A stretch of DNA of 64,000 nucleotides from Vitis vinifera (lineage: Eukaryota > Streptophyta > Magnoliopsida > Vitales > Vitaceae). This document shows, in pieces, positions 14,163 to 38,769 of the stretch. Positions within the stretch are counted from its first letter, which is position 1. Each line of letters starts with the position of its first letter. Location: NCBI RefSeq assembly GCF_030704535.1, contig NC_081810.1, positions 8,938,501 through 9,002,500 on the forward strand, given 5' to 3'. The translations under genes were made by a program, and so were the position numbers. The notes beneath the pieces were generated by a model. It saw nothing but the letters and a program-made list of their open reading frames with translations, ran no database searches and had not been told where the DNA came from.

Positions 14163-14859
14163 ATTATTGTAGACCCCATTTTGGGGCTTTTTTCTATAGG
14201 TTATTTTTGCCAAGTGGAGGTCTATTTTAGAGCCATGTGCTATCCCAAGAAAGGTTGTGGGAGAATCATGCTAGTGGTTTAAGGATGCAATGGGGAAATG
14301 ACACCTATTATGGAATATCCTGAAGGGAGTGAGGCTGTTAGAGAGGAAGTGATTTTGTTGCTGGTTAGAGAGAAGGATGAGGGTATTCTATTTAAGGAGA
14401 GATATTCCTTTAGGCGAGCTGGTTACAGATGGGGTAATGAGGGTAGCTTGGGGAAAAAGAAAAGGAGGGGCAAGATATTTTTTTAGGCTTAGGGGGGTAA
14501 GCCAGAGAAAAAAAGGAAGGAGGATATTTTTCTGGGTGGTTAGAGAGGAGTGGGTGGCTTTGGGGAGCAAGTTTTTTTTTTTTTTTAGGAGTTGCAGGCT
14601 GGTTACAGGAAAAAAGAATGAAGCTTGAGGAAAAAGATAGCTGACAGGAGAGAGTTGAAGCTGAAGAGCAGAGATTTCTAGACTGGTTCTTGGAAAGGAA
14701 AGGGAGCTTAATGACCATTAAATCGAGTTCGAAGAGACACTCCAGGTATGTTCATTGTGAGCTATGTAATTTTATCATTTTGGATGCTATTTTATTGGAT
14801 GTTTTTAGGTCGTTTAAGCACCTTTGCCGCTGATTCTCCCTCTATTTCATTGATTTTTC

Positions 14860-15660
14860 ATTTGGCGTTCAAAGTCGTTGTTCATTTTAGTTCGACGTTC
14901 AGAGTCATACCTTCAATTCGGTGTTCAGAGCCGCATTTTCATTTCAACATCCAGAGCCATCACATTTTTCGCTTGGCGTTCAAAGCCGTTTTTTCCATTT
15001 GGCGTTTAGAGCCATGTCTTTAGTTCAACATTCAGAGCCGCATCTTCAGTTTGGCGTTCAGAGTCGTCGTTTGTCTTTAGCTTAATATCCAGATCCATCG
15101 CATCTTCTTTTGGTTTGGCATTTAGAGCCACATCTTCAGTTTAGCGTGTAGAGCCACATTTTTAGTTTGGAGTTTAGAGCCGCATCTTCAATTTTATGTT
15201 CAGAGTCGTGTTTTCTATTTGGTGTTCAGAGCCATGTTTTTAGTTCGACACTTAGAGTCATCATGTCTTTCTTTCGTTCAACATCTAGATCCATCGCATC
15301 TTCATTTCAGTGTTCAGAGCCACAATTTTAGTTTGGCGTTCATAGCTATCATTTGGCCTTAGTTCGGTGTTCAAAGCCGCATTTTCAGTTTGGCATTCAT
15401 AGTCGCATTTTCATTTTGACGTCTAGAGCCATCGCATTTTTAGTTTAGCGTTTAGAGCCACACCTTCAGCTCGATGTTTATAGCCACATTTTCCGTTTGG
15501 CATTTATAGAGTCGTTTTTCATACCCATTCATGCATTTTGAGTCACCATCTTTCTTAGTTTTGGCATTCAGAGCCGTTGTACATATTCATTCAGGCACTT
15601 AAAGTCACCATCTTTCCTTGTTTTTGACGTTCAGAGTCATTTCTCCTCAATCGTATCATT
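14860..15660. repeat. Minisatellite with core GCGTTCAGAGCC (first array)
   Basis: A degenerate tandem array has a period of about 26 bp. The typical unit alternates 'tttggcgttcagagcc' with 'acatcttcag'. Variants change GCG to GTG or ACA and CC to TC. The array lies between the LTR-like start and the unique part of the internal region. Confidence 0.9.
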
Positions 15661-16619
15661 CAGAGTCATAACTCCTGGCATCCGTATTCACTGGCATTGC
15701 ACATCTTACCTTCATGGGTTTGCACTTGTCCTCATTTTCCTCACCTCGTTACCCTGTGCTTATTGCCTATTCATCATTGTTTTTCCAGATTTCCCTTTCC
15801 ACTGCACGTGACATAGTCCTTTGAGTTCGCAACACATATTTAAGTCATGTTGTTGGACACTTTACATTTAGCATTCTCATGTAGTTCACATAGGGCAGTC
15901 TCCTTTGGATGCATTCGTTTTTGTACTCCAAAGTGGTTCGACCTTTACTCATATTTGATATGATTTTTTGAGTCACTTTTGGAGACGTCTTAGAGAGAGT
16001 CTAAATCCTTAGTGCGACTTCAGGAGTGCTTTGAGAGATCCACTTTACTTTTAGGGTTAAAGCCCTTTTTGGTTCTTCTGTTGGCCTGAACGAGCTTGTG
16101 TCTTGCTCGTGTCCCTTTGGGGGTCTTCTTGGAGAGAGGGATGAGGGTATTCTATTTAAGGAGAGATATTCCTTTAGGCGAGCTGGTTACAGAAGGGGTA
16201 ATGAGGGTGGCTTGGGGAAAAAGAAAAGGAAGGGCAAGATATTTTTTTAGGCTTAGGGGGGTAAGCCAGAGAAAAAAAAGAAGGATGATATTTTTCTGGG
16301 TGGTTAGAGAAGAGTATAGGGTGGCTTTGGGGAGCAAGTTTTTTTTTTGGGAGTTGCAAGCTGGTTACAGGAAAAAAGAATGAAGCTTGAGGAAAAAGAT
16401 AGCTGACAGAAGAGAGTTGAAGCTAAAGAACAGAGATTTCTAGACTGGTTCTTGGAAAGGAAAGAGAGCTCAATGACCATTAAATTGAGTTCGAAGAGAC
16501 ACTTCAGGTATGTTCACTATGAGCTATGTAATTTTATCATTTTGGATGCTATTCTGTTGGATGTTTTTGGGTCATTTAAGCACCTTTGCTGCTGATTCTT
16601 CCTCTGTTTCATTGATTTT

Positions 16620-17460
16620 TCATTTGGCGTTCAGAGTCGTTGTTCATTTTAGTTCGATGTTTAGAGTCATACCTTCAGTTCGGTGTTCAGAGCCGCATTT
16701 TCATTTCGACATCTAGAGCCATCACATTTTTCGCTTGGCGTTTAAAGCCATTTTTTCCATTTGGTGTTTAGAGCCATGTCTTCAGTTCAACATTTAGAGT
16801 CGCATCTTCAGTTTGGCGTTCAGAGTCGTTGTTTGTCTTTAGCTTAATATCCAGATCCATCGCATCTTCTTTCAGTTTGGCGTTCAGAGCCATATCTTCA
16901 GTTTGGCGTTTAGAGCCACATCTTCAGTTTGGCGTGCAGAGCCACATCTTTGGTTTAGAGTTTAGAGTCGCATCTTCAATTTGATGTTCAGAGTCGTGTC
17001 TTCTATTTGGTGTTCAGAGCCATGTTTTCAGTTTGACACTCAGAGTAATCATGTCTTTCTTTCGTTCAACATCTAGATCCATCGCATCTTCATCTCAGCA
17101 TTCAGAGCCACATTTTTAGTTTGGCGTTCATAGTTGTCATTTGTCCTTAGTTCGGTGTTCAAAGCCGCATTTTCAGTTTGGCATTCATAGTCGCATTTTC
17201 ATTTCGACGTCTAGAGCCATCGCATTTTCAGTTTGGTGTTTAGAGCTATTGTTCATTTTAGTTCGACATTCAGAGCCACATTTTCCGTTTGGCATTTGAG
17301 AACTGTTTTTCATACCCATTCATGCATTTTGAGTCACCATCTTTCTCAGTTTTGGCATTCATAGTCGTTGTACATAGTCATTCAGGCACTTAAAGTCACC
17401 ATCTTTCCTTGTTTTTAACGTTCAGAGTCATTTCTCCTCAGTCGTATCATTCAGAGTCAT
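16620..17460. repeat. Minisatellite with core GCGTTCAGAGCC (second array)
   Basis: This is the same array in the second 1.76-kb unit, with the same order of variants, so it arose by duplication of the whole unit and not independently. It differs from the first array by scattered substitutions and small unit changes. Confidence 0.9.
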
Positions 17461-17925
17461 AGCTCCTGGCATTCGTATTCACTGACATTGCACATCTTAC
17501 CTTCATGGGTTTGCACTTGTCCTCATTTTCCTCACCTCGTTACCTTGTGCTTATTGCCTATTCATCATTGCTCTTCCAGATTTCCCTTTCCACTACACGT
17601 GACATAGTCCTTTGAGTTCGCGACACATATTTAAGTCATGTTGTTGGGCACTTTACACTTAGCATTCTCATGTAGTTCACATAGGGCAGTCTCTTTTGGA
17701 CGCATTCGTTCTTGTACTCCAAAGTGGTTCAATCGTTACTCATATTTGATATGGTTTTTCGAGTCACTTTTGGAGACGCCTTAGAGGGAGTCTAAATCCT
17801 TAGTGCGACTTCAGGAGCGCTTTGAGAGATCCACTTTACTTTTAGGGTTAAAGCCCTTTTTGGTTCTTCTGTTGGCTTGAGCGAGCTTGTGTCTTGCTCG
17901 TGTCCCTTTGGGGGTCTTCTTGGTT

Positions 17926-18021
17926 CTTCGGTAGAGCTCACATCATTCCACTCATTATTCACACTTTCTTTTCACTCTAGTGTTCATATTCCTTACATTC
18001 GTGAGCTTTACCGAAGAGGGG
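17926..18021 (+). other. Stem-loop and polypurine tract ahead of the 3' LTR
   Basis: Arms CTTCGGTAGAGCTCAC (17926-17941) and GTGAGCTTTACCGAAG (18001-18016) are complementary at 15 of 16 positions with a 59-nt loop. The right arm runs directly into the purine tract GAAGAGGGG, and the LTR start follows at 18028. A weaker version of the same arrangement flanks the 3' LTR of the minus-strand relative. Confidence 0.65.
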
Positions 18022-19012
18022 CATATTTGTAGACCCCCATTTTGGGGCTCTTTTCTGTAGGTTATTTTTGCCAGGTGGATAGATCTTTTAGAGCTACATG
18101 CTACCCCAAGAGAGGTTATGGAAGAATCATGCTAATGGTTTGAAGATGCAATGGAGAAATGACACTTGTTATGGAATATTCTGAGTAGAGTGAGGTTGTT
18201 AGAGAGGAGGTGATTTTGTTACTGATTAGAGAGAGAGAGGAGGATATTCTGTTGAAGGAGAGATATTCCTTTAAGATAGCTGGTTACAGAGGGGGTAAGA
18301 TATTTTTTTAGGGTTGGGGGGGCAAGCCAGAAAAAAAAATGATATTTTTTTGAGTGGTTAGAGAGGAGTGTAGGGTGGCTTTGGGGAGCAACTTTTTTTT
18401 CTGGGAGTTGCAGGCTGGTTACAGGAAAAGAGAAGGAAGCTTGAGGAAAAAGATAGCTGAGAGGAGAAAGTTGAAGTTGAAGAGCAGAGATTTCTAGATT
18501 GGTTCTCGGAAATGAAAGGGAGCTTAAGGACCATTAAATCGAGTTCGAAGAGACACTCCAGGTATGTTCATTGTGAGCTATGTAATTTTATCATTTTGGA
18601 TGCTATTTTGCTGGATGTTTTTGGGTCGTTTAAGCACCTTTGTCTCTGATTCTCCCTCTGTTTCATTGATTTAGCTTGAAAAACTAATGAAAACCCTTAT
18701 TCTATTCACTTTGGAGCATCTAGAAATAGGGGTTGCATTTTTGCTTTGAATTTGTTTATGTTTTTTTCCACCAGCATGAGCCCATTGATTGATCCTGAGA
18801 TGTGGTTTCATTAGGTTTCTATTTCTCATGTTTTGTTACCTTCCTCCTTCTTATGTTTTTTTCTTCCACCATTTGTTCTTACTCATTTTTCCTAGTTTTA
18901 TGGTAAATGTTTCACAAATGTTGTATATGGGTTGAGATTTTTTTTAGGCGGACAAAAATGGATAAGTTCTGTGCCAGAGAAAAGTAAAAGGGGATGCCAA
19001 TGCTAAGAGCAG

Positions 19013-19284
19013 GTGAGTATGGAGGAAGAGAGGCTCACGATTAGAGACTTTGTGATTTCTGTCGAGGCTCACATCAAGGAGGGAGATACTTTTTATTTGG
19101 TCACTCAAAAATGGTGGCTACAATGGTTGGAGTATGTGAACCAAGACCTGACAAATAACATAGACGTATCAATTTTGTCAGAGTATTGTGATTCAGTTAG
19201 CTCTAGTGATGTGAAGAGGCCTTCTGTTATTGATAATTCTGACTTGGTGTATGGCATGACATCTAAGGTCCACGATGGGAATTG
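19013..19284 (+). pseudogene. Captured fragment: ubiquitin-specific protease (UBP5-like), DUSP domain start
   Basis: The frame reads EEERLTIRDFVISVEAHIKE then GDTFYLVTQKWWLQWLEYVN, followed by CDSVSSS and IDNSDLVY. This is the N-terminal DUSP region of plant UBP5-type deubiquitinases, where GDTFYL(I/V)TQ-WW is highly conserved. Only about 90 codons are present and the peptidase Cys and His boxes are absent. The frame stays open to a TGA at the fragment end. It is the first piece of the mosaic and is followed directly by the RHM piece. Confidence 0.75.
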
Positions 19285-19286
19285 AG

Positions 19287-19440
19287 TGTCACGATTGTCA
19301 AGGGGAATATTAGTAGTGCTGGCTTTGTCAACTTCCTTCTCATCACTAAGTCCATTGATGCAATAATGCACCTTGCAGCCCAGACTCATGTCAACAACTC
19401 CTCTGATGAAGTCTATGGAGAAACAAATGAAAACGACCCC
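19287..19440 (+). pseudogene. Captured fragment: UDP-rhamnose synthase (RHM) dehydratase domain
   Basis: Translation gives IVKGNISSAGFVNFLLITKS, IDAIMHLAAQTHVNNS, then DEVYGETNEND. These are two conserved blocks of the NDP-sugar 4,6-dehydratase domain of plant RHM proteins (AAQTHVDNS and STDEVYGET), normally separated by a few dozen residues and here fused directly. The piece is about 50 codons, lacks the NAD-binding GxxGxxG start, and ends in unrelated sequence. It has no start codon of its own. Confidence 0.72.
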
Positions 19441-19444
19441 CTGT

Positions 19445-19630
19445 ATCAGTAACAACATTGTCATTATAGAACCTGTAAAGAGTAACCGTACACCCATTGT
19501 AGAGACTTTGCACAACGCCAAGATATGCCATTTTGGAACGACCCAATCATGCGGCGAAATCGACGAGAATCAGTTGCAGCCCCAGGTTTCTAAATATGAA
19601 AGCGAAATCGTGGAAGAAAAGTCATTTTTG
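19445..19630 (+). other. Unassigned segment of the mosaic
   Basis: This segment lies between the RHM-like and kinase-like pieces. Its composition is exon-like, with more GC than the spacers, but no reading frame gave a family I recognise. It may be one or two further captured fragments. Confidence 0.3.
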
Positions 19631-19639
19631 TCAACGAAA

Positions 19640-19790
19640 TCTCCGGAGTTGAAGCGAACGAATGGCAGAGCGATGCAATTCGAGGGTGTCAGAGGATATA
19701 TGTTGCCGGAATTCCAATCCATCGAAGTGGTGACACATCAATCAGATGTGTACGCCTTCGAAGTTGTGATCATAGGAATTTGGGCTGCTC
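19640..19790 (+). pseudogene. Captured fragment: receptor-like kinase subdomains VIII-IX
   Basis: The frame reads FEGVRGYMLPEFQSIEVVTH then QSDVYAFEVVIIGIW. It matches the activation segment end (GY-APE) and subdomain IX (SDVYAFGV) of plant receptor-like kinases. The conserved Gly after SDVYAF is Glu here, and no catalytic core is present. The open frame from 19373 to 19834 crosses several unrelated pieces and is not a gene. Confidence 0.6.
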
Positions 19791-20039
19791 TGCTATTCAG
19801 CCTAGCCAACCTTGTTTTGTACCAGATAATGTAGTTTCCCATGCATTCAACAGTTACTATCAGCAAAATGGAGCTTCTAACATCCAGCCTTGATGTGGGA
19901 CTAACAACAAATCAAGCTACAGGGGATTCATCATCATGCCATTTGCCTTGACTATTGCTTTTTGGTTACCATTTGAGAACCATTTATAAGATAATATTGC
20001 AGCCATGGTTCGTCAGTGTGTTCGAAACATGATTTTCTC

Positions 20040-20700
20040 AATGCATAAGTTCCCCATGCCCTTGTCTCCACTGTCAAAACCACTCCATCTCATCACCTTT
20101 CCACCCTTCATACTCCACCATACCTAGTGTCAAGACCCATCATACCCCTTAAACCCATTTATCTCACTATATTCCACTACCCATCCCACTAATCATATCC
20201 CATATCTTCCATGCCCATTAACGTGCCCACCATCCAACTCATTTCCATCATTCCCCACGTGTATGAAGACCAAAACGCATGGCCACCTTCATATTTTTTT
20301 TCTATCCTACATACCTATAGACCTTATTCATCGAACCTACCATCATCTGACCTACCTCCCATTCATTCCCATTACTTCCCGCTTGCATGAACCTTTCTAC
20401 GCGGGGCCACTCTCATTTCCCCACCTCCACATACCATCTTACCCATCACTATGCCTTCCCAACTTTCACACTTCACCATACCCAACTCATCACCACCCTC
20501 ATCTCTCTCTACATCCTCATACTCACTACCACCGAACCCATTTTCTCTCACTAACTCGTTCACCACCCATTTCCTACCTATTTATCTCTCAACACCCACA
20601 AAACCCATTCTCTTACTACATTTCCAATACCCATTCCACCAACCCTTCCCTATACCCATTTTTCTCATGGCACCACCCATTCCAACCTACTGTTATCTTC
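20040..20700 (+). other. C-rich, G-poor low-complexity block
   Basis: The plus strand is strongly C-rich and G-poor, with repeated 'acccat', 'caccac' and 'cccatt' words. The skew keeps a 167-codon frame open at 20263-20766 (His, Pro, Ser and Thr rich) that has no recognisable domain. It is better explained by composition than by coding. Confidence 0.5.
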
Positions 20701-20721
20701 ATTGCTGAGGTTGATACCTTT

Positions 20722-20870
20722 TGGGTCAGTGTGAGACAACAAACCATGAAACAATGGCAAACATGAAAACTGAGTTTAGGAATTTATTGGAAGGTTTTAC
20801 CATTGATCATAATGCAAGGGTGATGGTCCTTGCTGCTGCTAATCATCCATTAGAATTCGATGAAACAATT
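20722..20870 (+). pseudogene. Captured fragment: AAA ATPase of the MSP1/ATAD1 type
   Basis: The frame reads ETTNHETMANMKTEFRNLLE, then GFTIDHNARVMVLAAANHPL, then EFDETI. This is the segment leading to sensor 1 of the plant ATAD1/MSP1-like AAA ATPases, where VMVLAATNRP-ELDEAI is conserved. Thr-Asn-Arg-Pro is changed to Ala-Asn-His-Pro. The Walker A and B motifs are absent. The following codons to 20905 are unassigned. Confidence 0.75.
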
Positions 20871-20906
20871 TGGATGATGACATGGACGACTGAAGAGAAT
20901 AAGCAT

Positions 20907-21115
20907 GGGATTCCGCTTAAGACACAGGAGCTCTAAGCGTTTGTGCTTCTGACTCGATATTTGGATTTGTTCGCAGCTTCCTCTCTGTCTATAACACTGT
21001 AGTTAAGTTGATATCCATTAGGAACTCTTAAACGATTGTGTGGTGCACAAGGATGCATTGAACTGTGAAATGGTCACATGATGAACAACTCAACACCCCA
21101 CGTCGATATTCTAGA
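20907..21115 (+). pseudogene. Captured fragment: ER lumen protein-retaining receptor (ERD2)
   Basis: The frame reads GIPLKTQEL, stop, then AFVLLTRYLDLF. After a one-base frame change it continues FLSVYNTVVKLISI, TIVWCTRMH and DEQLNTPRRY. This is the TM2-TM3 part of the KDEL receptor (LKTQELYALVF-TRYLDLF and SLYNT-MK). Three in-frame stops and one frameshift make it clearly dead. No introns interrupt it. Confidence 0.78.
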
Positions 21116-21243
21116 AATGTCTCGTGATTGATGAAACCCTAGGGTCCCAACCCCGTCTCCTTCCAACTTTAACTGGGTTTATCCTCTCTTCTATTCTCCT
21201 TTTCCAATGTCTTTCATAAACCTTTTATTCTTATATCTCTCCA

Positions 21244-21548
21244 ACAACTGTGGCATGCTCCACTATATATCTGGTGACCAGTTCAAAATACAAGTGGTTA
21301 TCAGAAGACCCAATGGAGTTGGTCAGCAACTTGGGATTGAGCGCTCACAACGCCTTGAATCATATTTTCAATCAATACCTAGAATCCAAATTGTGGCGTG
21401 CTTAACCCCTTACAGTGCCAAGGGCTTGATAAAAGCTGCAATCCGGAGTGAGAACCCAATGATTTTTTTTTTTAGCATGTTTTGCTTTACGATCTCAAGA
21501 AGAGGATTCCAGATGAAAAGTATGTGTTATCATTTAAGGAAGCCCAGA
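21244..21548 (+). pseudogene. Captured fragment: pyruvate dehydrogenase E1 beta subunit
   Basis: The frame reads [60 protein letters not shown], then [10 protein letters not shown]. After a frameshift at a T-run (near 21462-21472) it resumes as [18 protein letters not shown]. This is the transketolase pyrimidine-binding part of chloroplast-type PDH E1 beta. About 100 codons are present as one intron-free block. The reaction centre and the C-terminal domain are missing. Confidence 0.82.
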
Positions 21549-21645
21549 AGAGACTCGCAGCCCAAATAGCTTCCAATGTCTACTATCATGTGGTCAATTC
21601 TCTTGGAAATGGAACCTGGGATCCAAAAAACTCTAGGAGGGGTTG

Positions 21646-21720
21646 AGAAAGATTGAAGACAATAATACTTTGGTTTTCCATGTTAACATTTGCCCTGACA
21701 AGAAGAAGATAAAGGACAGG
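21646..21720 (+). pseudogene. Captured fragment: ribosomal protein L23a (uL23)
   Basis: About 25 codons read RKIEDNNTLVFHVNICPDKK then KIKDR. They match the conserved KIEDNNTLVFIVD-RADKKKIKDA block of plant RPL23a, with three or four substitutions. The piece is short, so the call rests on this one continuous block. Confidence 0.65.
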
Positions 21721-21837
21721 CCTTAGATCACAGAAATGGATCACCTCATGCTGGAGTATCAGGCTTTGGGGTATTTGTTGAAGGATGAAGTCTGCATAAA
21801 ACTGGAATTGCGTGTTGTGATGGCACTTCGTGAGCAT
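21721..21837 (+). other. Unassigned segment of the mosaic (possibly another captured exon)
   Basis: A frame reads ITEMDHLMLEYQALGYLLKD then [21 protein letters not shown] cannot place it in a family. It lies between the RPL23a and POB1 pieces and runs in the same direction. Confidence 0.3.
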
Positions 21838-22270
21838 AAAGGAAACGAGATTTCTTAAAGCTGGCCATAGCTTTGATTCATCTTGGGGAATGGATTGTTC
21901 TACCGTTCTTAAGTTAGTGTTGTCCAGTGATGATCTCCAGTTTGTTTCTGAGGATGCTGCTTATGGTTTTGTACTAAAGTGGACCCAAATCCATTACCCA
22001 AAACTAGAGGACAGACGAGAAATCCTAGTTTCCCGCCTTGATCGCCTTATTCGTTTCCCATACATGACCTGTCGAAAGCTGAAGAAGGTTTTGATTTGAA
22101 ATGACTTTGATACTGAACTTGCATTGAAAGTCATGTTAGAGATTCTTTCTTTTTAAGGCTGAAGCACCATACAGGTAACGTTTCCTTGCCGCAGAGGAGG
22201 TTAATTCATCCCATCGTTGTTTTGTGGAGAAGGCTTACAAGTACCTTCCAATCAAGGTGGTGGAGTTTGA
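21838..22270 (+). pseudogene. Captured fragment: BTB/POZ-BACK protein of the POB1/LRB type
   Basis: The frame reads [19 protein letters not shown], then [40 protein letters not shown] and [13 protein letters not shown], followed after small lesions by FFKAEAPYR and [20 protein letters not shown]. These are the start of the BTB domain joined to the BACK domain of plant POB1/LRB proteins (CUL3 substrate adaptors). The whole central BTB domain is missing at a clean join near 21917. Stops and frameshifts occur after 22097. Confidence 0.88.
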
Positions 22271-22284
22271 ACGGCCCCGTCATC

Positions 22285-22465
22285 AGTTTGTTGGGTATTT
22301 GGTCTCCACTGGTCAACCTGTTAGGGATTACATTAACTCAGTTGTGAGACATGTTCTCCTCAGATAGGGTGCCCTTAGTATCATGATCAAGATCATTATT
22401 CGACCGGGATCCCAAGGGTGAGCAGGGCCCCATAACGCCATTGTCTGATCCGATGACTATTCAAG
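22285..22465 (+). pseudogene. Captured fragment: 40S ribosomal protein S3 (uS3) C-terminal part
   Basis: The frame reads [21 protein letters not shown], stop, then GALSIMIKI, a decayed RPG-QG-AGP stretch and SDD. It matches [39 protein letters not shown] of plant RPS3, with at least two stops. It is joined directly to the POB1 piece. It is intron-free across the block. Confidence 0.85.
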
Positions 22466-23383
22466 CATCCAATCTCACTGCATGGCCAACTATGCATGGC
22501 CCTTTTTGGGGCCATGTGTCTTCTCTTCTCATTGTTTCATCTTTGATTTTAAAAGGAAAAAAAATAAGTAATAATTCTCAAACTCCATTTTGCATATAAT
22601 CTTCCAAATTTTGATTTTCCAAATAATTTCAACTCTTCAATTTATCATATTTAGCATTTTTTTAGGTTCCAAGAATCCATTTTAATAAAATTTTGCTGTC
22701 ATTTCTCTTTCTGGCAAGCAATTTTCACATTTCCTCTGATTTTTAAAATGTTTTAAAATAAACAAGAATTAAATTTCGTAATTCCAACTGATGGAATTTA
22801 TGGAATTGATTCATGCAAAAATAAATGGAGCTTTGGTGGGAGCCCAACATATGTGATTTTAAGATTGATTGATTGATTGATTTGATTGTTATACATGATT
22901 GATTTATTCCGCTCTATGACATGCATGTGATTATTCTTTGTTTGTTCACTGACTTTTGTTTTCCATGAAGTAAATCAGCTTATCACTCAGGCACACTCTT
23001 CGCCTCTCTTATTCATTCAGGTATTTTGTTTTGATTTTTCATTTGGTATCCATTGATTTACTTATCAATCGCTATGCTTGATTCATCTCATTAGTAGAGA
23101 CCCGTTTTTAGGGACTTAGAGGGGTGCTACGGTCTTATTCGTACATTCCTGATAAGTAACCTGACTCTCGAGCCCATATTTGGTTTTTCACAGACCACTT
23201 TTTTTCCAAATAAGGAGTTACACTTATGGTTTTTCTTTCTTATTTTATTTACCCTTTAAAAATAAAACAAAAATAAGTGGCAACTCCAAGTCATTTTCTT
23301 AATAAATAAATCATTTTTCAAATAAAAAGCGAGCTCGTCATCGAGTGGAAGCGCATGAGCAGAAATACGGGGTCCACAATTAT

Positions 23384-24409: not shown

Positions 24410-24933
24410 TGTGGACCCGCGTTTTTCATATGCATCTTCACTAGACGGCGAAACTTGCTTTTCATTTATCTTGTGAAATTTTGATTTTTTTTTTAAAGGC
24501 TTGGAGTCGTCACTTATTTTAGTTTTTTTTAAAGGAAAACAAAATAAAAATGAAAATCTTTGTGACTCTTTATTTAGAAAAAATATGTCTACAAAAATTG
24601 AATATGAATCTGGGGTCAGGTTATCTATTAGGAAGGTATGGTGGTGAGAGAATGAGGGAGTAAGTGGAGTGGTTGGGGAAGGTAGGAAGAGATATGAGAG
24701 GGGAGAGAGAAAAGAAAGAAAAAAGAAAAAAACTAAAATAAAAATATAATAATAATAATAACAACAACAACAGTTATAGTAATAATAATAATAAAATAAC
24801 AAAATAATAAAAATAAATAATTAAATGGTGAGTGTGTTAAAAATATAAGATGTAATCGAGAATTAAAAACTAAGGATAAAATTGGGCTCAAAATCAACGT
24901 AAAAATAAAATTGAGACAAATTTTGGGGGTACA
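24410..24933 (-). repeat. 3' LTR of the minus-strand element
   Basis: On the minus strand it begins TGTACCCCCAAAATTTGTC after the purine tract AAAGAGGGGCATATT and ends CGCGGGTCCACA. Its first 190 bp match the 5' LTR start at 38764 (with the hAT removed), including an (AAT)n stretch. Its end matches the end of the plus-strand relative at 23378. Confidence 0.75.
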
Positions 24934-25369
24934 AATATGCCCCTCTTTGGTAGAGTCCACGAGTAAAGTGATTGTATACACAAGCGAAACGAAGTGAGCT
25001 CTGCCAAAGAACAAGAAAAACCATCAAATTTGTTATAGTATGACACGGGCTGTCTTAAACCAAAACAAGAACAATAAACTCTAAAATCCTACAAAAATGG
25101 CAATAACGAAAACTCTTAAGGTGCCTTTAAAGTTACACTATGAATCCAGACTCCCTTAGAAAAGTCTCCAAAAGTGACTCAAAAATCGATGTCAGAGTCG
25201 AGTAGCAGCCGAAGCACCAAGGAGCATATGAACAAACACATACAGAAGGAAAACTACACATGCTCTATACAAGGGCACAAGGCGAGGAGTACCAATGATA
25301 CGATCAAAACACATGCTATTAGCTCAATAGACTATATCACACACAATGGAGGATGATAGACTCTAGAAA

Positions 25370-25710
25370 CTATGGCTTTGAATGCTTGAACTGATAAAGG
25401 TAGCTCTGAATGCCTAAACAGAGCAAGGTGACTATGGACGCCTAAATTGAGCAAGGTGGCTCTGAACGCCTAAACCGAATAAGGTAGCTCTGAACGCCTA
25501 ATTGAGAAAGGTGGAACTGAGCAAAGTGACTCTGAACGCCTAAACTAATAAATGTGGCTCTGAATGCCTAAACTGAGCAAGGTGGCTTTGAACGCCTAAA
25601 TTGATAAAGGTAGCTTTGAACGCTTAAACTGGACAAGGTGACTTTGAACGCCTAAATTGAGTAAGGTGGCTCTGAACACCTAATCTGAGTAAGGTGGCTC
25701 TGAATGTGAT
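25370..25710. repeat. Minisatellite with core GGCTCTGAACGC, reverse of the arrays at 14.9 and 16.7 kb
   Basis: The period is about 28 bp. The unit is close to 'ggtggctctgaacgcctaaa' plus 'ctgagcaa'. The 12-bp core is the exact reverse complement of GCGTTCAGAGCC in the plus-strand element. The spacer part of the unit differs, so the arrays share a core but have expanded separately. Confidence 0.9.
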
Positions 25711-26529
25711 CGCTTGATTTTTCTGATTTATTACATCAAAACACAATTTATAACCTAATTCACTACTCTAGAGTAGCTTGTACCCGATAAAAAATGGTTT
25801 TAGTACAAACTACCATAATATAGTAGTTTTTAAGTGTCGTCTACTAGGATGGATTATTCTTGGTAATTAAGGCTTGAATGAGAGGATAAGAAATGATTGT
25901 GATCAAGTGAAATTGATTTGAAAATTCATGGTGAAAAATCAATTTAACAATGGTCTCAAATTGAGAAGAAAAATGAAATGTAAAATATAAGAAAATTAAT
26001 AAGAGATGAAATTCTTGAAATTAGGATTTTCTAGAAAACAATTTCCATAGTGAATAGATGTTGAGATCTAATTTTCATCAAGTTAGATTGAAAACCTAAA
26101 TTCTCATCTAAACCGATTTTGGATGTAGTTTTAAGTCTAGATCTAATTTATCTTCAAATTAGGTTATTTAATCCAAAAGATCAATTCAAATCATATCTTC
26201 AATTCATCTTAAATTATCTTCCAATGATTCACACAATGCAACTATTCAATCTCATCAAATCTAACTTTAAGAATTTAATGAATCTACTTAGTTTACATTG
26301 TAGTAATCATCTAAGATAATTTGAAGAGAAAAATCCCCAAAATTCAATTAATCAATCAATTGGATCAAATTACCTTTGTAATTCAAGCTCATTTATCTAA
26401 TTCACCATAGATCTTGCCTTTAGATCCTTCTTCATTCGAGAAAAAAAAGATTTAGTCACTCATTTAAACACTCACTCATTTGGCTGGGTTGGTACGTCTG
26501 GCGTGACGAAACTAAACGTCTTGAAGTCT

Positions 26530-27180
26530 ATATCCACCACTTCCTTCTTGTAGATAGCAAGCCATAAAACAACCTTCGCCTGAAACAATCAAACAAAGTA
26601 GATTCAAACTTCCCTTCTTATGTACAATGCAACAAAGTATACACAACTACAAGCTACTTTACCAAATTATGTTGTATTCCACTCATACAACTCATTTTCC
26701 TTCATGGCCGAGAATCTAGGAGCTGGATTATCTTGTTCTACAGGTCATATACATATAACATCCAATGGTTATTTATAAGAATCGGTAAGTAGACCTGCAT
26801 TATTCGACTTACAATGAATTACAAAAAATATTGGGTTAATGAGATTACAATATTACAAACATAAAACAATGCAGTCTACCTCACCTCATTAACATTCCGG
26901 TATGAAACATCTAGGGGATACAAATATAGCTCAAAACGGATTATTATTGCTTATCACGTCAAATGTTTGGTGTTGGAGCGCATGACCATTTCCTGCATAT
27001 CATATGAAAACAATTAAAGCTTTCAAATTTAGCAAAACTTGTGTACATGTTATAACAACTAATCATTGAAATTCTGTCTCCATAAAAATTCTTCATTACA
27101 GCTATGTATGGCGAAAGAAACAGTTTTGTCTTTGATACATCTTCAAATTGCAGCATCCTACAATATGCATCCACGACCTA
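26530..27180 (-). pseudogene. Decayed Ulp1-like (C48) protease region of a MULE
   Basis: On the minus strand, near 26700-26780, the sequence reads INNHWMLYVYDL, stop, then NKIIQLLDSRP. It resembles the His (HW) and Asp block of Ulp1/SENP cysteine proteases. Upstream, 27174-26959 reads MDAYCRMLQFEDVSKTKLFL and YIAVMKNFYGDRI. The catalytic Cys box was not found. Ulp1-like domains are known cargo of plant MULEs, and the MuDR transposase lies upstream on the same strand. Stops break the frame. Confidence 0.5.
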
Positions 27181-27219
27181 AAAAAATGATTAATATGTAA
27201 GCAATATTAACAATCACTA

Positions 27220-30200
27220 ATGACAAGTTGTTACGTGAATATGAAACTTAAAATAATACAAGATCATGGAAAAATTGTGACATTAACATCATTCCCAATC
27301 CATTTGTCTCATTCGAAAGAGGTAAGGTTGCCTCTGCTTAAACTCATGTCATGCATTGCCAAGTTCCTCACTTTCACCAAAATCATATATGTTAGGGTAA
27401 TACAAATTTTTTCAGGTTCATACAATTGAAATTGGAGTAATATATGGTTCAACATACCTTAGGTCCAAATCTCCATCAAATACAATTGCAACTACTTGTT
27501 TCATGTCCATCTTTATGGCAGACTGTCGGGTTTGTGGTTGTGCTATGAATGGTGACAACAGATTGAGAACCATTCGATGCATTCTCCATCGCCTCCCACC
27601 CCTCTTGGATGGGGCCAGAATCATAGAACGCAAAGAAAAGTGGTTATAGACGACTATTTCTTCTTCATCTGTTAATTTGGACTAACAACTAATTAGTTCA
27701 ATGAAGGACACTATAATATTAGTATTTTTTTTTAAGAACTGCTGCAATAATGAATGTCCCCCAGAATGTTACCATTAAGTGTTAACTTTGACCCTCCGGC
27801 CTCCATATGAAAATCTGGGGCTGGTTGTCGAATTGGAGTGTCTGGTACCTTTTTTGTGTCATGCCATACCATGTCATGTCATATTGGGTAGAGTTTGCAT
27901 GCTTCTTGGGCACGGGAAAGACATTGGATACATACCTAGAGTGACCAACAACACTCGAATGTACACTTCTTGCCATTTGGCACCCAATCTATGCATCAGC
28001 TCATGCATGACGTCAAACTGTTGTTGTATGCCCTTTTGATATGTCGTTATTGCACCTTCTACTTCATGGTACTGCTCCAAGATTTCCTGTCACATGTTAA
28101 CCAAATTCCACCAAATTATTTAGTGTAAAACTCTTCAAAAAAAATCTTTAAAACCCCTAATTTATAATATTTCGACAAGTAAACCCAATTATAATTCCAT
28201 TGAGACGGATTAAACTCGTAAAATAACAAAAAATCATGTGTACATCACTACTTGTGGGCCTACTCTCGGCCTCCACATGTGTAGGTGGCGGTGACGATTC
28301 ATGGAACCCCTACAATTGAGAACATGACACTTGTTAAGAACATATAAACCTTTAAGGTGTTCAACTTGCATGTCATCAAATTACATTTTTGCATGCATAT
28401 AGACTATATGACTACCTTGCCATGTCCAAACTGCTAAACTCCCTTATCTCAGCAGTTAGTCGCTGCTTTATCAACTCTTCTGACCATGCCAAGAGTTGGG
28501 GCACTATCATGGGAACATGAACGAAAAGAATCTTGAATTTCATGACATAATGGAGTTGCACCATGGAAATAAACATATGTGCAATCATGACTTGGTGTTA
28601 CTGATGTTAACAATTAAAAAGTTACCAAGTAACATATGTAAAAGAAGTGCAATACCTATAGAAAAATGATGTAACCATGTACCCATACACTATTACTTTG
28701 CTTATATTGTCTTATACTCTCTACAAGTTGGTTAATAACAAATCGGCCCTAGTTAACATCGTTTCTGAAACCATCTTCATGGATGGTATGCCACAAGTTT
28801 CGACATCCATCAATATTTTAGGTGGGCGCCAATATCGTCACACAAGCGTAGTAAATGAAGCATCTTCGAAACTCCTCCCCAACAAGTAAGTTGATGAGTC
28901 TCTCCTCACATGTTGGGGGTGTACCAAACGGATGATTAAATGGGGTTGATGGAATTTATAAAATCTATCTAGTTGTCAGGAAGCCAAAGACAAGCCCCAC
29001 ATCAGTAGTTGTAAGATCATATATTTTATCGGCTAAGATCTCTATTCGTTTGAATCCAACGTTAAAATGGTGGATCAACCATAGACATATATTGTGTCAT
29101 ATCTCCTTACAGTTTAAGTTTAGAAGACCTCCAAACTGGAGGTTTCGAACCACTTCCAATTTCTCATCCGGTAACTTGTTGTATAGTTTTAGGAATCTTG
29201 AAGATGAACATCGTGTCAACAATCTGGTGGCCTGCATTAAAATTGTTGGAGATCATTAGTCTCAAATTCCATTAACATAACTGCAGTTGCTAATTGAGTA
29301 TTATGGATAAATAGTATAAGTTTAAATTGTAGTGGACAAAAGAGCTACAAAAAGAGTTGTGCATTGAAGTTATTGCACATTCATAATCTATGCATTTTTA
29401 TCTAATTAATAGCCACTGCCATGGGATTTCATCTATTTTCATGATGTGGTTGGTCAAAGTTGGAGCTAGAGCTTCAATTTCAAGAGGTAAGGTTCTTGAC
29501 TTGTTTTTTCTATTTGTTGAAAAAGTGAGGGAGAGTTAGACCCAACAACAGCCAACAACTTGCATAAGCCTTGAATTATAGGTACTTTGTTATCCAAGAG
29601 TGCTAAAGTAAATTAGAGATTATGGGATCATTTGTGTATCTCTTCATTTTTTAGCACTCATTGATTTTACTCTTATGTTAAAATCTGATGGTGACAAACT
29701 CTACCTCTTTTATGTAGCCACGATGTGATGATAATGAGAGCAATACTGGAGTGGTTCCTATGAGGGAAACCCAGGATTGTGTAGAAATCCTTTGATAAGG
29801 AAATGTGGAAATCTTAAACAAGCATTACCACAAACATCAACCTCTGAATAGGGTCAAGACCTGGAGCCTGCCAAAGGGTTTGATAGGAAAATGGTGTTGA
29901 TGGGATATGGAAGTGGGCTACTCTTTGGACTGATTATTGGATACATCTTTACCACATGGAAGCACGAATGGTTTATCTAGACTTTTGTAAGGAGGTAACA
30001 ACAAAAACAAAGGGTAAATTGAATTAGTGTTATTATATTGTTTCATTTCCTTTTTATTTCTTTCAAATGTGGAAAAATTAGTGGACTAGTATTAATATAT
30101 TTGAAATGGTTAAATAGTTATGGTGATTTGCATGTAAGAAGTAATGTAACTAGCTTGTCTTTTTAAAGTATTATTTGTAAAGTGTTGTTGTGACACTAGT

Positions 30201-32017
30201 AGCTTAGACATGAATTTTACTAATCAGCAAAAAAGTATAAACATCAATATGAATACACATCAATGCTCAAGAAAGCAATACAATTGAATGAAAAAACAAA
30301 CAATACTAGCTATGGGAAACCAAAGCAGAAGGAAACAATTAAGGTGCTACTGAAACTTTAGTAGTGCAGTGAAGTTAAATCATCAATAACAACCAACAAC
30401 ATTGATACCATCACAAATAGTACTTAAAAAACCAACAATATAATTAAAGAAGAGTGCAATAGAATTAAAGAAGAGTTTCATTTTACTAAGCTCTATATAC
30501 CAAGAATATATAATAATTTTACAGATAAAATTGCCTATGTTTTTTAAGTCTTTTTTACCAGACATATGATTCAATTACAGGATTGTGTCGTGTAGCTATC
30601 ATATTTAATTTTGCTTCAAAGAACTTAGAATAAACAAGAGTATATAAATTTTGCCATTGAACGTGGAATTAAAATTTGAACCATATGTTCTAACAAATTG
30701 CAGAATAGCTGCCTCCTCATAGTTTGTCTTGATAATGAGTCAATATATATATTTTTTTCTCTTAACATGCTTGAAATAGCTTGCAGAGGTAACCAATAAA
30801 TTGAAGTTATGCTACAAACTTGAATTAAACAATGATAACTTTTATATAAAGTTAGGTAATCCGCTTGTTTTTCTCACCATCCACAAAAGCTAATGGGAAG
30901 AGAGAATTAAAAAAAATATTAATGTGGATCAATAATTTATTAGTGAATGCTTATGTAATAAACAATCCTTAACAGTCAATGCAAGTAAGTGTCTTAAGTA
31001 GGTTAAAATCTCAAGTTCTCGAAAAAAATTGATGAAAAAAAAAAACATGAAAGAATGCATTACCTCCGTAGAGGCCATTGAAGAATGAAATTATCCCTGT
31101 AGGTTTCAACCTTGCAACAACTATTTACTTGAAATATGTTCTATAGTAGTTATCTCCCACCTAGAAGAACTCATAATAAAGGGAATGTTCATTTAAACAG
31201 TTATACCATTCATCGGTCTAATAAATTTGGTAATGGCACACCATATTCAGATTTCTAAGGAAAAAATAAATGAATAAAAAAAATATGGCAATTTGGGATA
31301 AAACTTCCACTTTGGAAGCAAACACTTGTATGAACTACTATCCACCTAACAACTTACCATAATCCACATAATGAATAAATTGCTATAGAATAACCATAGT
31401 GGCAAGCTACGTAACAAGTTATCTCATTGAAGAGACCTTGAAAGACAATTTTTATTACATGTTAGACTTCATGACAGCTTCGAATGGATGCAACCAGAAC
31501 GTGATGCGATAAAAAGTGAAGACCAAAATGTGGAAATAATAAAGGACAACCATTTTCCTCTTCTCCCTTCCAAAAAAAAAAAAAAAAAAAAACGTCAATC
31601 GCAATAAGTTCATAATTTAATAACAAATTGTCATCCTCATTTAGGCTTCGAACAAGAAATGCGAAATAATGTAGACACCCTTATGAAATTAAACAACAAG
31701 TGAAAAGAGACCACATTCAAATTGTACTTTCAATCAAATTAGTTAATCAAAGCAACTTTAAATCATGAAAATAAAAAGATAGTTCATCATGCCTATAACG
31801 AGGCCAATACATACATACCAAAATCAACAACCCCCCCCACCATATACCATAGAATGGAATAATGAGGGATGGTACAAAATATGAAAACCTTACAAACACA
31901 AAAAGGGATATGTCATAGCAATTGATTATTACATTTAGAGCGATTGTGACCTATACTATTGCATCGAGAGCAATGAATTGTTTTCTTATGGCAAAACTAT
32001 CACTCAATATATTTTTG
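27220..32017 (-). other. Decayed MULE body between transposase and Ulp1-like regions
   Basis: Short frames on the minus strand, such as 27874-28080 (EQYHEVEGAITTYQKG, coiled-coil-like), probably belong to the same ancient MULE gene, but I cannot join them. From about 29.3 to 31.9 kb the sequence is AT-rich with no recognisable coding. Confidence 0.35.
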
Positions 32018-34194
32018 TCAAGGTCTTCCTGGAGGACGTCTCACATGAGGGGGTTGGAGAGCAGGAAATAAGTTGCCCACTCCATCTTGTAAACTCCCAT
32101 TCTCACAAACTTTGGGCATATTGTGCATTGGTAATGGTTGAAACTGACCCAAGTAAATCAAATGTTGAGTGGAGGCATGAAAACATGGGTCGATATACTC
32201 ATACACATCGTGTCTCAGTGTGCGGATGACAGCACATACATGTGAACATGGCAATCTGGACATTTGCCATGTCATACAAGTACATGTACATTGATGCATA
32301 TCGACAACCAAATAAACTTCCCCAGTAAATACCTTAAACGTCCCCCCCAAATAGGGTAACACACTAATCGAACTAGACCTCATGATATTTGACATTAGGT
32401 TATCTTCTGTTTTTTGTCCAACCACGCTCTTCCACTTTTTGTACCACGCATATGGGTGTCCAACATGGCTACAAGCTTTATCCATGTGCATTAACAATAA
32501 CGTATAAATTGTTTGGTGGCGCTCATTTCTTAACCACGCATTGAAGGACTCTACAATATTAGTTATCATTTTATCCCAACGTTTTTTTAAGGAACTTTGG
32601 CATTGCCCAATGCTCAGGATTGTTTTCCACAACCCATTTTTCTAGGTTGTCATTGAAGCGCACAAGTTTTTCAAATGCCTCGTTGTAATCTATATCCAAC
32701 CTAGCATACACAATGCTATCCAAAAGCAACAAAACATCTTTTTTTTCCTTTTTTTCCTCTAATGTTTTGCATATTCAAGAGGCTAGAAAAGTTTTCCTTC
32801 ACATGTCGATAACAATATGCATGATTTTATGTCCCGAACAACTTGAAAACACTATGCAAGATTCCCTAATGTCTATTTGATATAATAACTACTTCTTTAC
32901 CATCTAGGACTCCCTTTAATTTCTCCAAGAACCAATACTAGTCCTCATAATTTTCTAAATTGACCACACCAAGGTCTAGAGGGAACATTCCATCGTTTGC
33001 ATCATATGCAATGGCGGACAAAGGAGCTCTCTTATATGAACCGCTTAGGTGGTAAGAATCAATAGCCAATACCGGTCGACACCCCATGATGAACCCTTGA
33101 ATTGAAAATGTATGGGCAATGAACAATTGCATGAAGTGATTCATGGGAAATGTACTCTGCAATAGTGTTAGGGTTTATTCCCCTTAGTCTATGGCATAAC
33201 CGAGGCAAAAACGTGTAGGACTCACGTAGAGCTCCATATATGCGCTCTTTTGCCTTCTCTTTAAGGTGTCATGCTTGGTTATATGTCAATTGAACTCCAT
33301 GATCACTTTCAAAATCCTTGCAACTTTGACAACAAGATATTCTGGAGTGGTTTTAAACACATCTTCAACAACAACAACGCCTCTCTTTGAAGAAACCCTT
33401 ACCTTAGATGAACACTCGTCTTGAGCTATATGATTATGATTCACTTGGTAAGTATGAACTCACAAGATTACATTTCCCTCTACAGCGTATCTTCTAAGGA
33501 CAATCCTCAACCAAACACTTTACGAACATATGCGTAGGTGAATTTTTCTTGTACTTGTATTCAAACCTCCCACCTAATGACATCTGGTATATTGCATTCT
33601 AAAACTCCTCAGCATTTTTAAATGTATGTCCTGACCCTAATATTGCCTCATGAAATTGATTCGATTCCAAATGAGCGTACTCACTATCTACACCACGCGA
33701 TGCAAAACCTCTTGGTAGCATCATAGTATTAGCAATTGCATCGCATGATGCATTAGAGGAAGGAAACGTGAGAGGTGAACCTCTGCATTTACATACATTA
33801 ACAAAATTAGACTACATCATGTGTAAAATTGATATTCACAATATTTTAAATAGACATTCATGTTAAAGTCCATTACCCAAATGTCAACTGTGTGTTCGGT
33901 ATATTTGCCTCAATGGCTTCCACATTGGGTGACTACTATGTATACATTTATAAAGTCATCATTGTGGGAAACCACGTTATCCAAGTCATCCTCATATTCT
34001 AAATCTTGAATGACTTTGGAGTTGAACTTGAGGGTGTAGTGCATCTTCATCACATCAAGTGAGATGTCGAATTTCTCTAAGATTTTTTGAATGAAATCTT
34101 CAAATGACATTCCTTTATATATGTGAATACCTTTGCTTATTCCACCCACGTATTCCCATTGCCCATCATTTTTTTGGACAAGTTTGCCTCCCAC
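32018..34194 (-). pseudogene. MuDR-type transposase of a MULE, broken
   Basis: Blocks appear in the expected order on the minus strand. A PB1-like N-terminal region is at 34194-33910 (MGGKLVQKNDGQWEYVGGIS). A MuDR DNA-binding block is near 33660-33520 (LGSGHTFKNAEEF, then YKYKKNSPTHMFVKCL). The catalytic core is at 33162-32938 (GCRPVLAIDSYHLSGSYKRA, then AIAYDANDGMFPLDLGVV) and near 32830 (CYRHVKENF). A SWIM zinc finger is at 32632-32018 (CTCMTWQMSRLPCSHVCAVI). Frame changes and stops separate the blocks, so it is not functional. It lies inside the LTR-bounded element and on the same strand. Confidence 0.85.
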
Positions 34195-34910
34195 AAAAAT
34201 TTAACAATATATCTTATTTGTTGCGTCTATCAACCTATTAAAACAAAGCACAAATTTCATATTGTTGAACAAACAATTATGCATATTCAATGTCATCCAA
34301 AAAGTTTTTTCGTCTCACAAGAGGTATTGTTCCCATACGAATTACTACCACCAACATTTTATCACCAAGATCTATTGTTCAAACAAAGTGTGAGACCTAT
34401 TTTTTCATTCGTTTAACTTGAAGCCAACAACAAGTAATTAAGAAGAAGCACGTGAAATGGAAGGTAGAAAGGGAAATGACGCAGTGAAGTGGGGATGCTA
34501 CTGGTAATCATGATACCTTAATTTTGAATAATGCATTAAAAAATTTATATTAAAAACAACAATTTATATATGCAAAAATTTAACTTTAGCTTATGTCTTA
34601 AGAAATCATTATTTTAGTGATGAGAAATTTTAAACTATTTAAAATTTTATAATAACTTAATTTTGCCCACAAAAAATTTATATATCAATCTTAAAGAGTT
34701 TTTGCATCTTTTATAAAAATTCCTACTATGCTTTGATTTATGATTTTAAACACAAAAAATAGCTAATAAATATATCCAAACAAACCCCAAGTAATCACCA
34801 TTTATTTATATCAACCATAAATTATGAAAGTCAGGAAAAATGCATGTCTTTACTTTATTTCTTGTGGAATTGCACATAGTTTCAAAAAATTGGGGAAATA
34901 AACAATACAG

Positions 34911-35104
34911 TGAGGTTTGAACTTATGACTTCCTGACAACTTGGCCCTTGATACAAAGTTAAGCTATAACGTTGATTCAAAAGTTTGTAGATGTTAGGTA
35001 ATGATGGGACAATAATGCACATCAAGCTGATTTGAGCCAATTTCATAGCTTAAAATGCTATTAGAGCCTTAGTTGTTAGGAGGTCATGAGTTCGAACCTC
35101 AACA
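34911..35104. repeat. Inverted repeat arms with a tRNA-like B-box
   Basis: The arm at about 34912-34945 ('gaggtttgaacttatgactt') is the imperfect reverse complement of 35070-35100 ('gtcatgagttcgaacctc'). The right arm contains GAGTTCGAACCTC, close to a pol III B-box. It could be a pair of facing SINE ends, or the ends of one small fold-back element. Confidence 0.4.
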
Positions 35105-36421
35105 TGTTTTTCTAATATGCTAACCTCCCCAATTCTGCATTTCATGTTGTTTTCACCTCAAAGGAATCTAAACAAAGCATTTCCAATGACCCATTCCTAC
35201 AACCAAACAATGTTGCTAGGTTTTGTACCCCCTCCTTCCACATCCCAAACAAGCAACTGCTCAATCTTCTTTACATTGATCATAGTAGTGATAGAAAATG
35301 TTAAGAGATAGACAACCTCTTAGAGAAATAGACTTTTATCAAAAGCAAGGAATCTTATGTTAGTGAGAGCTCTATTTGAAATGTTTCTATCTCTTGCATC
35401 CATCCCAATTTCATTGACTTGTATTCATAAATGATTTGATGGATGGAAGGACAAGAAGTTAAAGTTTTGAATGAGAGCATGGACACTAGATATATTAATG
35501 TGATAAAGAACTGATACATTGAAAAACATGATTATTGAAAGAGGGATAGGCAAATCAATTCCAAATCATGGTTATGTTAAGGTTCACATTAGATACTTAT
35601 TTTTTTCCTTATGTGGTCTTTAAATCGTTTGGATTTTATTTAAGTTATAATTATGAAAATGAGCCTTTCAATCTAGGGATTTAAAATTAAACAAAATTTA
35701 TATTTTATAAAATATAACTTCACTAACTATAGTAGAATTGTCTCGTGTACTTGCAATGTTTTTTGATTGGCATCTTTTATATATTAGTGTTTGCCTATCC
35801 AAAAAAAAAAAAACCTAGAGTAGAATTTTAAAATATTGACAAGAGTAGAAGTGGAAGAATTGTAAGAATTGATGCCCAAATGCATATTTGGTTCTCTTTG
35901 AATTGATCACTGATATATGGAGAATCAAGTAAACATTAGCTCCAAGATTAGAATAGGAAAGTTGTTGTAGGGAAATGGTTTGGGGTTGTTAAGTTAACAT
36001 TAAAAGGCAATTTTGCTAGATAAAGGCCTTATACTAATGATGCTTGCCCATATCAAATAAGCATGTTGAAATGGAGATGTTAAGATGGATAAATGACTAG
36101 AAAATGAATATGTTAGTTGAAACCTAGACGCAGGCATCTATTCAGGACAAGACGGAATAAGACCAAATGACCCTAAATTTAGACAGGACATGACCCTCAA
36201 TCTAGCTTGATGGATAAACATAATTTGTGTAGTAGAACAATTATAATTGATAGATAAACACTTGCTGGAGTTCAGTGCCTAACTTTTCATTACAACTTTA
36301 TTTTCATATTCACATGTTTCTCTTTAAAATTTGTTCGAAGTTTGTTTCAGTTTGCACTATTCTATTTAATTTAATGAAGAAATGCCAATTATGCCAATTA
36401 AATTTGTTGTGTGTTGTGCAG

Positions 36422-36496
36422 TTACAAATTGGTGTTGATGAGTCATATAAGCTATCTATTCCTTCACATGGGACACTTGTTTATGCTCATATTCAG
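36422..36496 (+). pseudogene. Captured beta-hexosaminidase exon with intact splice sites
   Basis: This 75-bp phase-0 block encodes LQIGVDESYKLSIPSHGT then LVYAHIQ, matching the N-terminal region of plant beta-hexosaminidases (DESYKL...Y A). It is preceded by a T-rich tract ending TTGTGCAG and followed by GTAAGTGTG, so the acceptor and donor are both preserved. Neighbouring exons of the gene were not found. It is on the plus strand, opposite to the MULE transposase, and lies within the same nested element, so Pack-MULE capture is plausible. Confidence 0.65.
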
Positions 36497-38663: not shown

Positions 38664-38769
38664 GTAACAACAGTAATAGTAATAAAAAGGATTTTAAAAC
38701 TAATGATAAAATGGGACTCAAAATCAACATAAAAATGAAATTGGGACAAATTTTGGGGTCTACAATAAT

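Follow-up and report, generated by a model that had tools for sequence, protein, structure and literature searches.

How did pieces of many unrelated protein-coding genes come to stand end to end, and in one orientation, within a single transposable element of the grapevine genome? The question is raised by a 64,000-nt stretch of Vitis vinifera DNA from NC_081810.1 (hereafter the window; coordinates refer to it unless a contig is named, and C-numbers are contigs of the plant's own genome), in which an earlier note had described decayed, apparently intron-free fragments of nine or more host genes lying in the same direction within one element. We found that 19006-22474 is a mosaic, all in sense orientation, made of pieces from ten plant genes that can be identified and of one further gene piece matching C11, that this mosaic sits inside the 3' long terminal repeat (LTR) of a retrotransposon and not between its LTRs, and that its pieces derive from spliced RNA wherever this can be tested. 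With a probability of roughly 0.8, we attribute it to serial template switching of reverse transcriptase onto spliced cellular mRNAs and RNAs of sibling elements while U3 was being copied.

For identification of the pieces, 18960-22490 was read in three frames and compared with Pfam, PDB chains and protein records, and the own genome (assembly G000, 495.6 Mb, 21 contigs) was searched with the best 40 of 112 candidates scored, so that counts of matches are lower bounds. At least 48 matches were obtained. Apart from the self-match they were partial, each to an individual piece, and the complete mosaic did not recur among the best 40 candidates scored. In DNA, all pieces match loci of the own genome at 77-93%, and the parents are spread over at least nine contigs. 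For RPL23a and RPS3 the matching loci are sibling elements, and the RPS3 gene itself was reached by way of a sibling. All nine parents named in the earlier note are supported by Pfam, PDB, protein records or own-genome loci, some of them weakly when taken alone, and its count rises to ten with the addition of an X8 domain, beside the C11 piece at 21093-21244.

All pieces lie on the + strand. The mosaic opens with a piece of the ubiquitin hydrolase UBP5 (19006-19295; Pfam DUSP, 1.4e-5; 84% to a V. vinifera UBP5 record), whose parent is on C7. That record, P0007 (578 aa), carries a copia reverse transcriptase domain (PF07727) beside its UBP5 domains and is possibly a gene-model fusion. There follow a piece of the rhamnose synthase dehydratase RHM (19295-19431; Pfam GDP_Man_Dehyd, 6.4e-6) and a LysM receptor-like kinase piece (19448-19771) that matches its parent at 91% in DNA and kinase P0008 at 83% over 109 codons (Pfam alone gave just 0.12); its name follows the record of a LysM receptor-like kinase in Juglans (49%). 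The added X8 piece (19764-20203) comprises the X8 domain of a glucan endo-1,3-beta-glucosidase and downstream sequence, with 69% identity to protein record P0010 and 77-90% in DNA, the last 53 bp being weak. Between the stretches 20204-20680 and 20871-20906, for which no parent was found, lies a piece of the AAA ATPase MSP1/ATAD1 (20681-20870; parent on C16; Pfam AAA, 1.7e-7 on hand-joined frames vs 0.0041 unjoined; PDB, 1e-5). The KDEL receptor ERD2 is next (20907-21097; 80% in DNA; Pfam ER_lumen_recept, 1.4e-11 hand-joined vs 0.012 unjoined; PDB, 4e-8 on the joined piece). The C11 piece, 87% in DNA, matches sequence upstream of a reading frame that by eye resembles a plastid transit peptide.

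In the right-hand third, a plastid-type pyruvate dehydrogenase (PDH) E1 beta piece (21238-21628; Pfam Transket_pyr, 2.9e-15) has a DNA match to 21543 and a protein match to 21628. Its parent was found with equal score and identity on two contigs (L011, C10:11501583; L012, C4:15901938), perhaps through recent duplication or as an assembly effect. The RPL23a-containing block (21629-21867; PDB, 8e-4) is common to loci on C15, C2, C10 and C16; a 43-codon stretch within it (21727-21855) has no PDB or Pfam match and belongs to the siblings' RPL23a block by DNA alignment. A joint protein query made of MSP1, ERD2, RPL23a, RHM and this 43-codon stretch returned AAA/MSP1 relatives only, RHM proteins being outside the length range. 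The BTB-BACK protein POB1/LRB (21858-22305; 87-93% in DNA; Pfam BACK, 2.8e-5) and RPS3 (22292-22474; PDB, 3.6e-9, or 9.9e-13 for one chain containing RPS3 twice) complete the series, the RPS3 piece being common to at least six sibling elements. The internal skips that had been read in RHM and POB1 are real: 104 bp of coding sequence is missing from RHM at 19405, and about 150 codons (1283 bp of the parent) from POB1 at 21911/21916. Both look like later deletions. In Vitis rotundifolia, gene model P0064 shares the POB1|RPS3 junction with the window, terminates at the window's stop and keeps much of the POB1 middle, which argues for later loss in POB1; for both genes, separate captures were rejected as the source of the skips, which are coding losses. 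This junction is the one found in a record from elsewhere; the whole junction set is without a counterpart among the own-genome candidates mentioned above.

What carries the mosaic? The element spans 14168-23378, with the 5-bp target-site duplication (TSD) ATTAT on both sides (14163-14167 and 23379-23383) and LTR termini TG...CA. Its 3' LTR (TGTAGACCCC...GGGGTCCACA, 18028-23378, +) is 5351 bp long. We assign it as such because the polypurine tract GAAGAGGGGCATATT (18013-18027, +) ends directly 5' of it, because the LTR start TGTAGACCCC recurs at 14168 (83%), and because a related element at 24410-38764 has an LTR end homologous to the right end, GGGGTCCACA at 23378; the start and end of the 3' LTR are also homologous to sibling LTR ends, and a like tract precedes the 3' LTR in the copies L040 and L032. 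The location of the mosaic is accordingly corrected to the inside of the LTR, which the earlier note had not recognized. The mosaic is framed there by a common left part (18028-19005, +; over about 18464-19012 it is 76% identical to four copies, two on C4 and one each on C14 and C15) and a common AT-rich tail (22493-23378, +), the most repeated part, with 5340 loose first-look candidates of which the best 40 were scored. Within it lies a C-rich, G-poor block (20128-20680, +) that is found mid-LTR in all five profiled LTRs and has short matches in the copies L032, L033, L036 and L038. At the other end the 5' LTR has been reduced to its left ~0.69 kb (14168-14856, +), which is 83% identical to 18027-18672 (Kimura two-parameter distance, K2P, 0.111), is joined to 26-bp repeats and lacks the cargo region.

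The stretch 14365-17923 (+) is a tandem duplication of LTR part, 26-bp repeats and 3' internal region (copies 14365-16132 and 16129-17923, 92%), and the degenerate 26-bp repeat array, duplicated along with the LTR part, occupies 14880-15500 and 16648-17300. No stop-to-stop open reading frame of at least 130 aa that could represent gag-pol was present in 14168-18027 of the window copy. The related LTR retrotransposon at 24410-38764 (-) has the TSD ATAAT, a polypurine tract, a 3' LTR of about 525 bp and 28-bp repeats resembling the 26-bp repeats of the window element; its interior holds remains of a MuDR-type transposase (DBD_Tnp_Mut, 7e-9; MULE, 2e-7; SWIM, 9e-5).

The window's 5' LTR has lost its cargo region, and proof that cargo is carried in both LTRs was therefore drawn from siblings. 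These were found by searches of the own genome with LTR start and tail, at most 40 candidates being scored per search, and thus represent high-ranked matches in one genome and not a random sample. They have the LTR ends and the C-rich block in common and differ in their gene sets. The most complete is a 39-kb element on C4 (23960838-23999892), with ACTTG on both sides and a polypurine tract 5' of its 3' LTR (L040, 5389 bp), to which the 5' LTR (L039) is 90.4% identical save for an insertion of about 1.95 kb. By Pfam, L039 carries GH9, SINA and WWE; L040 aligns over this cargo stretch, and its own DNA search finds L039 and the GH9 parent. In this sibling, cargo lies in both LTRs. The pair is equally diverged in the left part (K2P 0.0877) and in the cargo (K2P 0.0896), and the cargo was therefore already in the LTR at integration. 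A probable LTR pair on C5 (L033/L032, 90.4%) carries UBA1, ankyrin and RPS3 (Pfam on L032, which lacks its LTR end). Divergences of the three LTR pairs are 0.089, 0.098 and 0.111, corresponding to about 3.4-4.3 million years at the grass rate of 1.3e-8 substitutions per site and year. Since woody plants generally evolve more slowly, the elements may be older.

Other copies carry other sets. L036 on C14 holds RPL5, VPS54, tubulin and RPS3 and is probably a solo LTR, with flanks (GTTAT/ATTAT) alike at 4 of 5 bases; a second C14 copy (L038) holds ABC1 kinase, SDH1 and RPS3; and a C15 copy holds Lipase3_N, the RPL23a block and GRDP_C, beside copia-type genes. Cargo thus differs between copies, some blocks (RPS3, RPL23a) being common to several. 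The five profiled LTRs are alike in having a G-rich block near the start, the C-rich block in the middle and the AT-rich tail (L032 being incomplete). At 2706-3647 (+) of L036, a polypurine-tract region is followed by an LTR of just ~942 bp with the same tail, a probable cargo-free relative and possibly the ancestral or autonomous type.

Were the pieces taken from RNA or from DNA? In the window copy, two intervals are directly testable. The 2831-bp GT...AG intron of the C7 UBP5 parent (near 19109) and the 177-bp GTGAGT...GTAG intron of the C16 MSP1 parent (near 20808) are both exactly absent from the mosaic, as the aligned letters of the loci show. RPS3 is testable via a sibling: five exons of the RPS3 gene (C4:1373581-1376347) are joined in the C5 element, and the match of the window piece runs across one of these joins. 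The intron-free state described earlier accordingly holds for these three, and the kinase, PDH, RHM and main (right-hand) POB1 stretches, each within a single parental exon, are uninformative. Siblings agree with RNA capture as proposed. GH9 lacks two GT-AG introns and tubulin one (spliced parent vs element, 37, 35 and 35 of 40 bases). L038 likewise joins exons: six from a gene on C13 that covers its ABC1 kinase piece, and four from the C4 gene that covers its SDH1 piece. For the exon chains of RPS3, ABC1 kinase and SDH1 the evidence is one of coordinates and not of letters, stretches adjacent in the query being split in the genome. In no matched piece was a retained intron seen; stretches without a parent cannot be judged.

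Orientation is equally uniform. Pfam scans of five LTRs in the sense direction, with a threshold of E<=0.05, identified 18 different gene fragments (6 in the window, 4 in L036, 3 in L032, 2 in L038 and 3 in L039). In 15 antisense frames (window, L036, L040, L032, L038) no Pfam family was found. The two scans of the C4 element used different LTRs, the 5' LTR for sense and the 3' LTR for antisense, and in L036, L032 and L038 somewhat less sequence was scanned in antisense than in sense. The window's three antisense frames are among the 15, and the common direction claimed for its pieces stands.

We propose that host mRNAs would be packaged into the particle with element RNA, and that reverse transcriptase copying U3, during or just after first-strand transfer, would switch serially onto these mRNAs and back, often at short homologies. 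Because both LTRs are made from one minus strand, the cargo would stand in both and be inherited. Sibling element RNAs in the same particle would account for blocks shared among copies, and later deletions and point mutations would decay the pieces. That the cargo lies in U3 rather than in R, and that switching takes place at first-strand transfer, are inferred parts of this scheme. Seven joins were scored, namely six of 12 printed comparisons and the join of the left LTR part with UBP5; internal gaps, joins with bases lacking a parent and a second version of the RPS3 join were left out. At the seven breakpoints the two parents have identical runs of 3, 1, 10, 6, 0, 4 and 0 nt. Runs of at least 3 nt thus occur at 4/7 junctions vs 6.5% per random junction under the null, each run being the best over tied breakpoints and so leaning high. 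Such short homologies fit template switching, of which they are no proof. Pairing of the G-rich with the C-rich LTR block was considered as a cause of switching and rejected: duplex energies were within about 1.5 standard deviations of shuffled sequences in all five LTRs, three being weaker and two slightly stronger.

Besides this upward lean of the runs, several points weigh against our explanation. The RNA origin and the LTR location are observed; the reverse-transcription step is inferred from them. Three of the seven junctions have runs of 0-1 nt, and at three (left LTR part, RPL23a, RPS3) a sibling element, not a host gene, forms one of the two sides. The proof from two LTRs is lent to the window copy by its siblings, as noted above. 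No autonomous partner of the family was found, and the primer-binding site is uncertain, TGG beginning 3 nt past the 5' LTR of the C4 element. By Pfam, three copies (L034, L035, L037) have RPS3 as the only host cargo in the scanned regions, other retrotransposon genes also being present in L034 and L037. Three gaps that were candidates for introns are not of the GT-AG kind: that in X8 comes from a transposon inserted into the parent, with GTCTTGAC duplicated, and the 63-bp gap of RPL23a and the 99-bp gap of SINA have no fitting GT-AG join. Finally, a spliced retrocopy on C17 may have served as an intermediate for the UBP5 piece. In this retrocopy (L030 5489-6326, within C17:19757500-19767400) five exons of the C7 gene are joined, and it lies within a few kb of an LTR tail of the window element's family, on the opposite strand. 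The piece shares seven bases with this retrocopy against C7, and ten with C7 against the retrocopy.

This retrocopy also speaks for the strongest alternative, in which retrocopies or filler-DNA repair built the mosaic in the chromosome and the LTR took it up by recombination. Microhomology, moreover, arises in end-joining as well. However, random insertion should give both orientations, and 18/18 scored fragments are sense; five LTRs, with largely different cargo sets, would also have had to acquire them at the same place. We regard such a two-step origin as unlikely.

A nested Pack-MULE or Helitron that captured genomic DNA and later hopped into the LTR is a still less likely source and was rejected. 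DNA transposons are the usual gene capturers, with 1194 Helitron and 462 other DNA-transposon captures in a maize survey (PMC2774510), and class II elements of grapevine are likewise known to bear parts of genes (PMC2528002). Against this, introns are absent exactly (by letters) or by exon coordinates, the scanned LTRs have no antisense domains, and cargo varies between copies within one LTR frame. No exact inverted repeat longer than 9 nt was found between 18500-19120 and 22250-23000, and direct repeats of 10 nt around the mosaic were simple sequence only, shorter duplications not having been sought; Helitron ends (TC...CTRR, 3' hairpin) were viewed by eye near 22490. Equally improbable is a single capture of one long chimeric transcript, whether read-through or trans-spliced. 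It would explain why the pieces are sense, spliced where testable and, among the candidates scored, found in this exact combination once, but the parents lie on at least nine contigs, and RPS3 and RPL23a recur in siblings as single blocks whose neighbours otherwise differ. Processed pseudogenes of LINE type, which come one gene to an insertion with a poly(A) tail and a target duplication of their own, do not fit the ten genes in succession within one LTR, and the printed junction letters show no long A-tract (target duplications of single pieces were not sought).

Beyond the window copy, we consider it probable, with less assurance than for template switching itself, that a large grapevine LTR-retrotransposon family acts as an RNA-level gene shuffler: its U3 would gather sense pieces of spliced mRNAs at one place in the LTR over successive rounds and exchange them among siblings. 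The LTR would then be a hypervariable multi-gene cDNA cassette and would do among retroelements what Pack-MULEs and Helitrons do among DNA transposons. In plants, the shuffling of genes by transposons is for the most part credited to DNA elements, and an LTR element is generally taken to pick up a single gene, seldom as many as three. If our account is true, a family that works through RNA and stores many spliced genes in its own LTRs would be a new route of exon shuffling and a route to transcripts related to housekeeping genes, as well as a natural record of the mRNAs that enter particles. Capture of the retroviral type would also become testable, every junction preserving a past template switch between identified parents.

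Elsewhere in the window are what we take, by eye, to be an ERF/CRF-like factor gene (42979-44133, -) and an LRR receptor kinase gene (54756-58297, -), together with a tRNA gene (3228-3300, +; 67.8 bits) and a SNORD34-like snoRNA (4503-4586, -; 39.1 bits, just over the cut-off of 38).

Gene capture by LTR elements is already known. For multi-gene, copy-specific, spliced cargo inside LTRs we found no report in the openly licensed literature, most subscription papers being outside its scope. Maize Bs1, an LTR retroelement that has transduced segments of three host genes (PMC13317346), resembles the grapevine element in type, in carrying several unrelated host genes and in transduction, and here too multiple genes are present with introns removed. 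It differs in number and placement: three genes in Bs1, as compared with about ten in one grapevine LTR, other sets in relatives and cargo in both LTRs of a sibling. Captured genes in LTR elements number 672 in rice and 1343 in sorghum (PMC3726574), and maize LTR retrotransposons likewise contain host gene fragments (PMC2774510); in grapevine, five LTRs carry at least two genes each, three other scanned copies having RPS3 only. Additional open reading frames of plant elements mostly lie between pol and the 3' LTR (PMC7264820). Host-derived sequence within LTRs is known from Cassandra, a terminal-repeat retrotransposon in miniature (TRIM) with 5S rDNA-like sequence (PMC10853983), but that is one conserved promoter module, whereas the grapevine LTRs hold many protein-gene pieces that change from copy to copy. 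In BARE-2 and Veju, abnormal template switching brought foreign sequence into the LTR or element (PMC13317346); the donor there was another retrotransposon or unknown DNA, and in grapevine, on our reading, a series of cellular mRNAs. Pack-MULEs and gene-carrying Helitrons likewise bear pieces of host genes (PMC2528002, PMC2774510). The grapevine class II examples, however, hold introns as well as exons (PMC2528002), while the cargo described here is spliced, in sense orientation only, and housed in the LTR.

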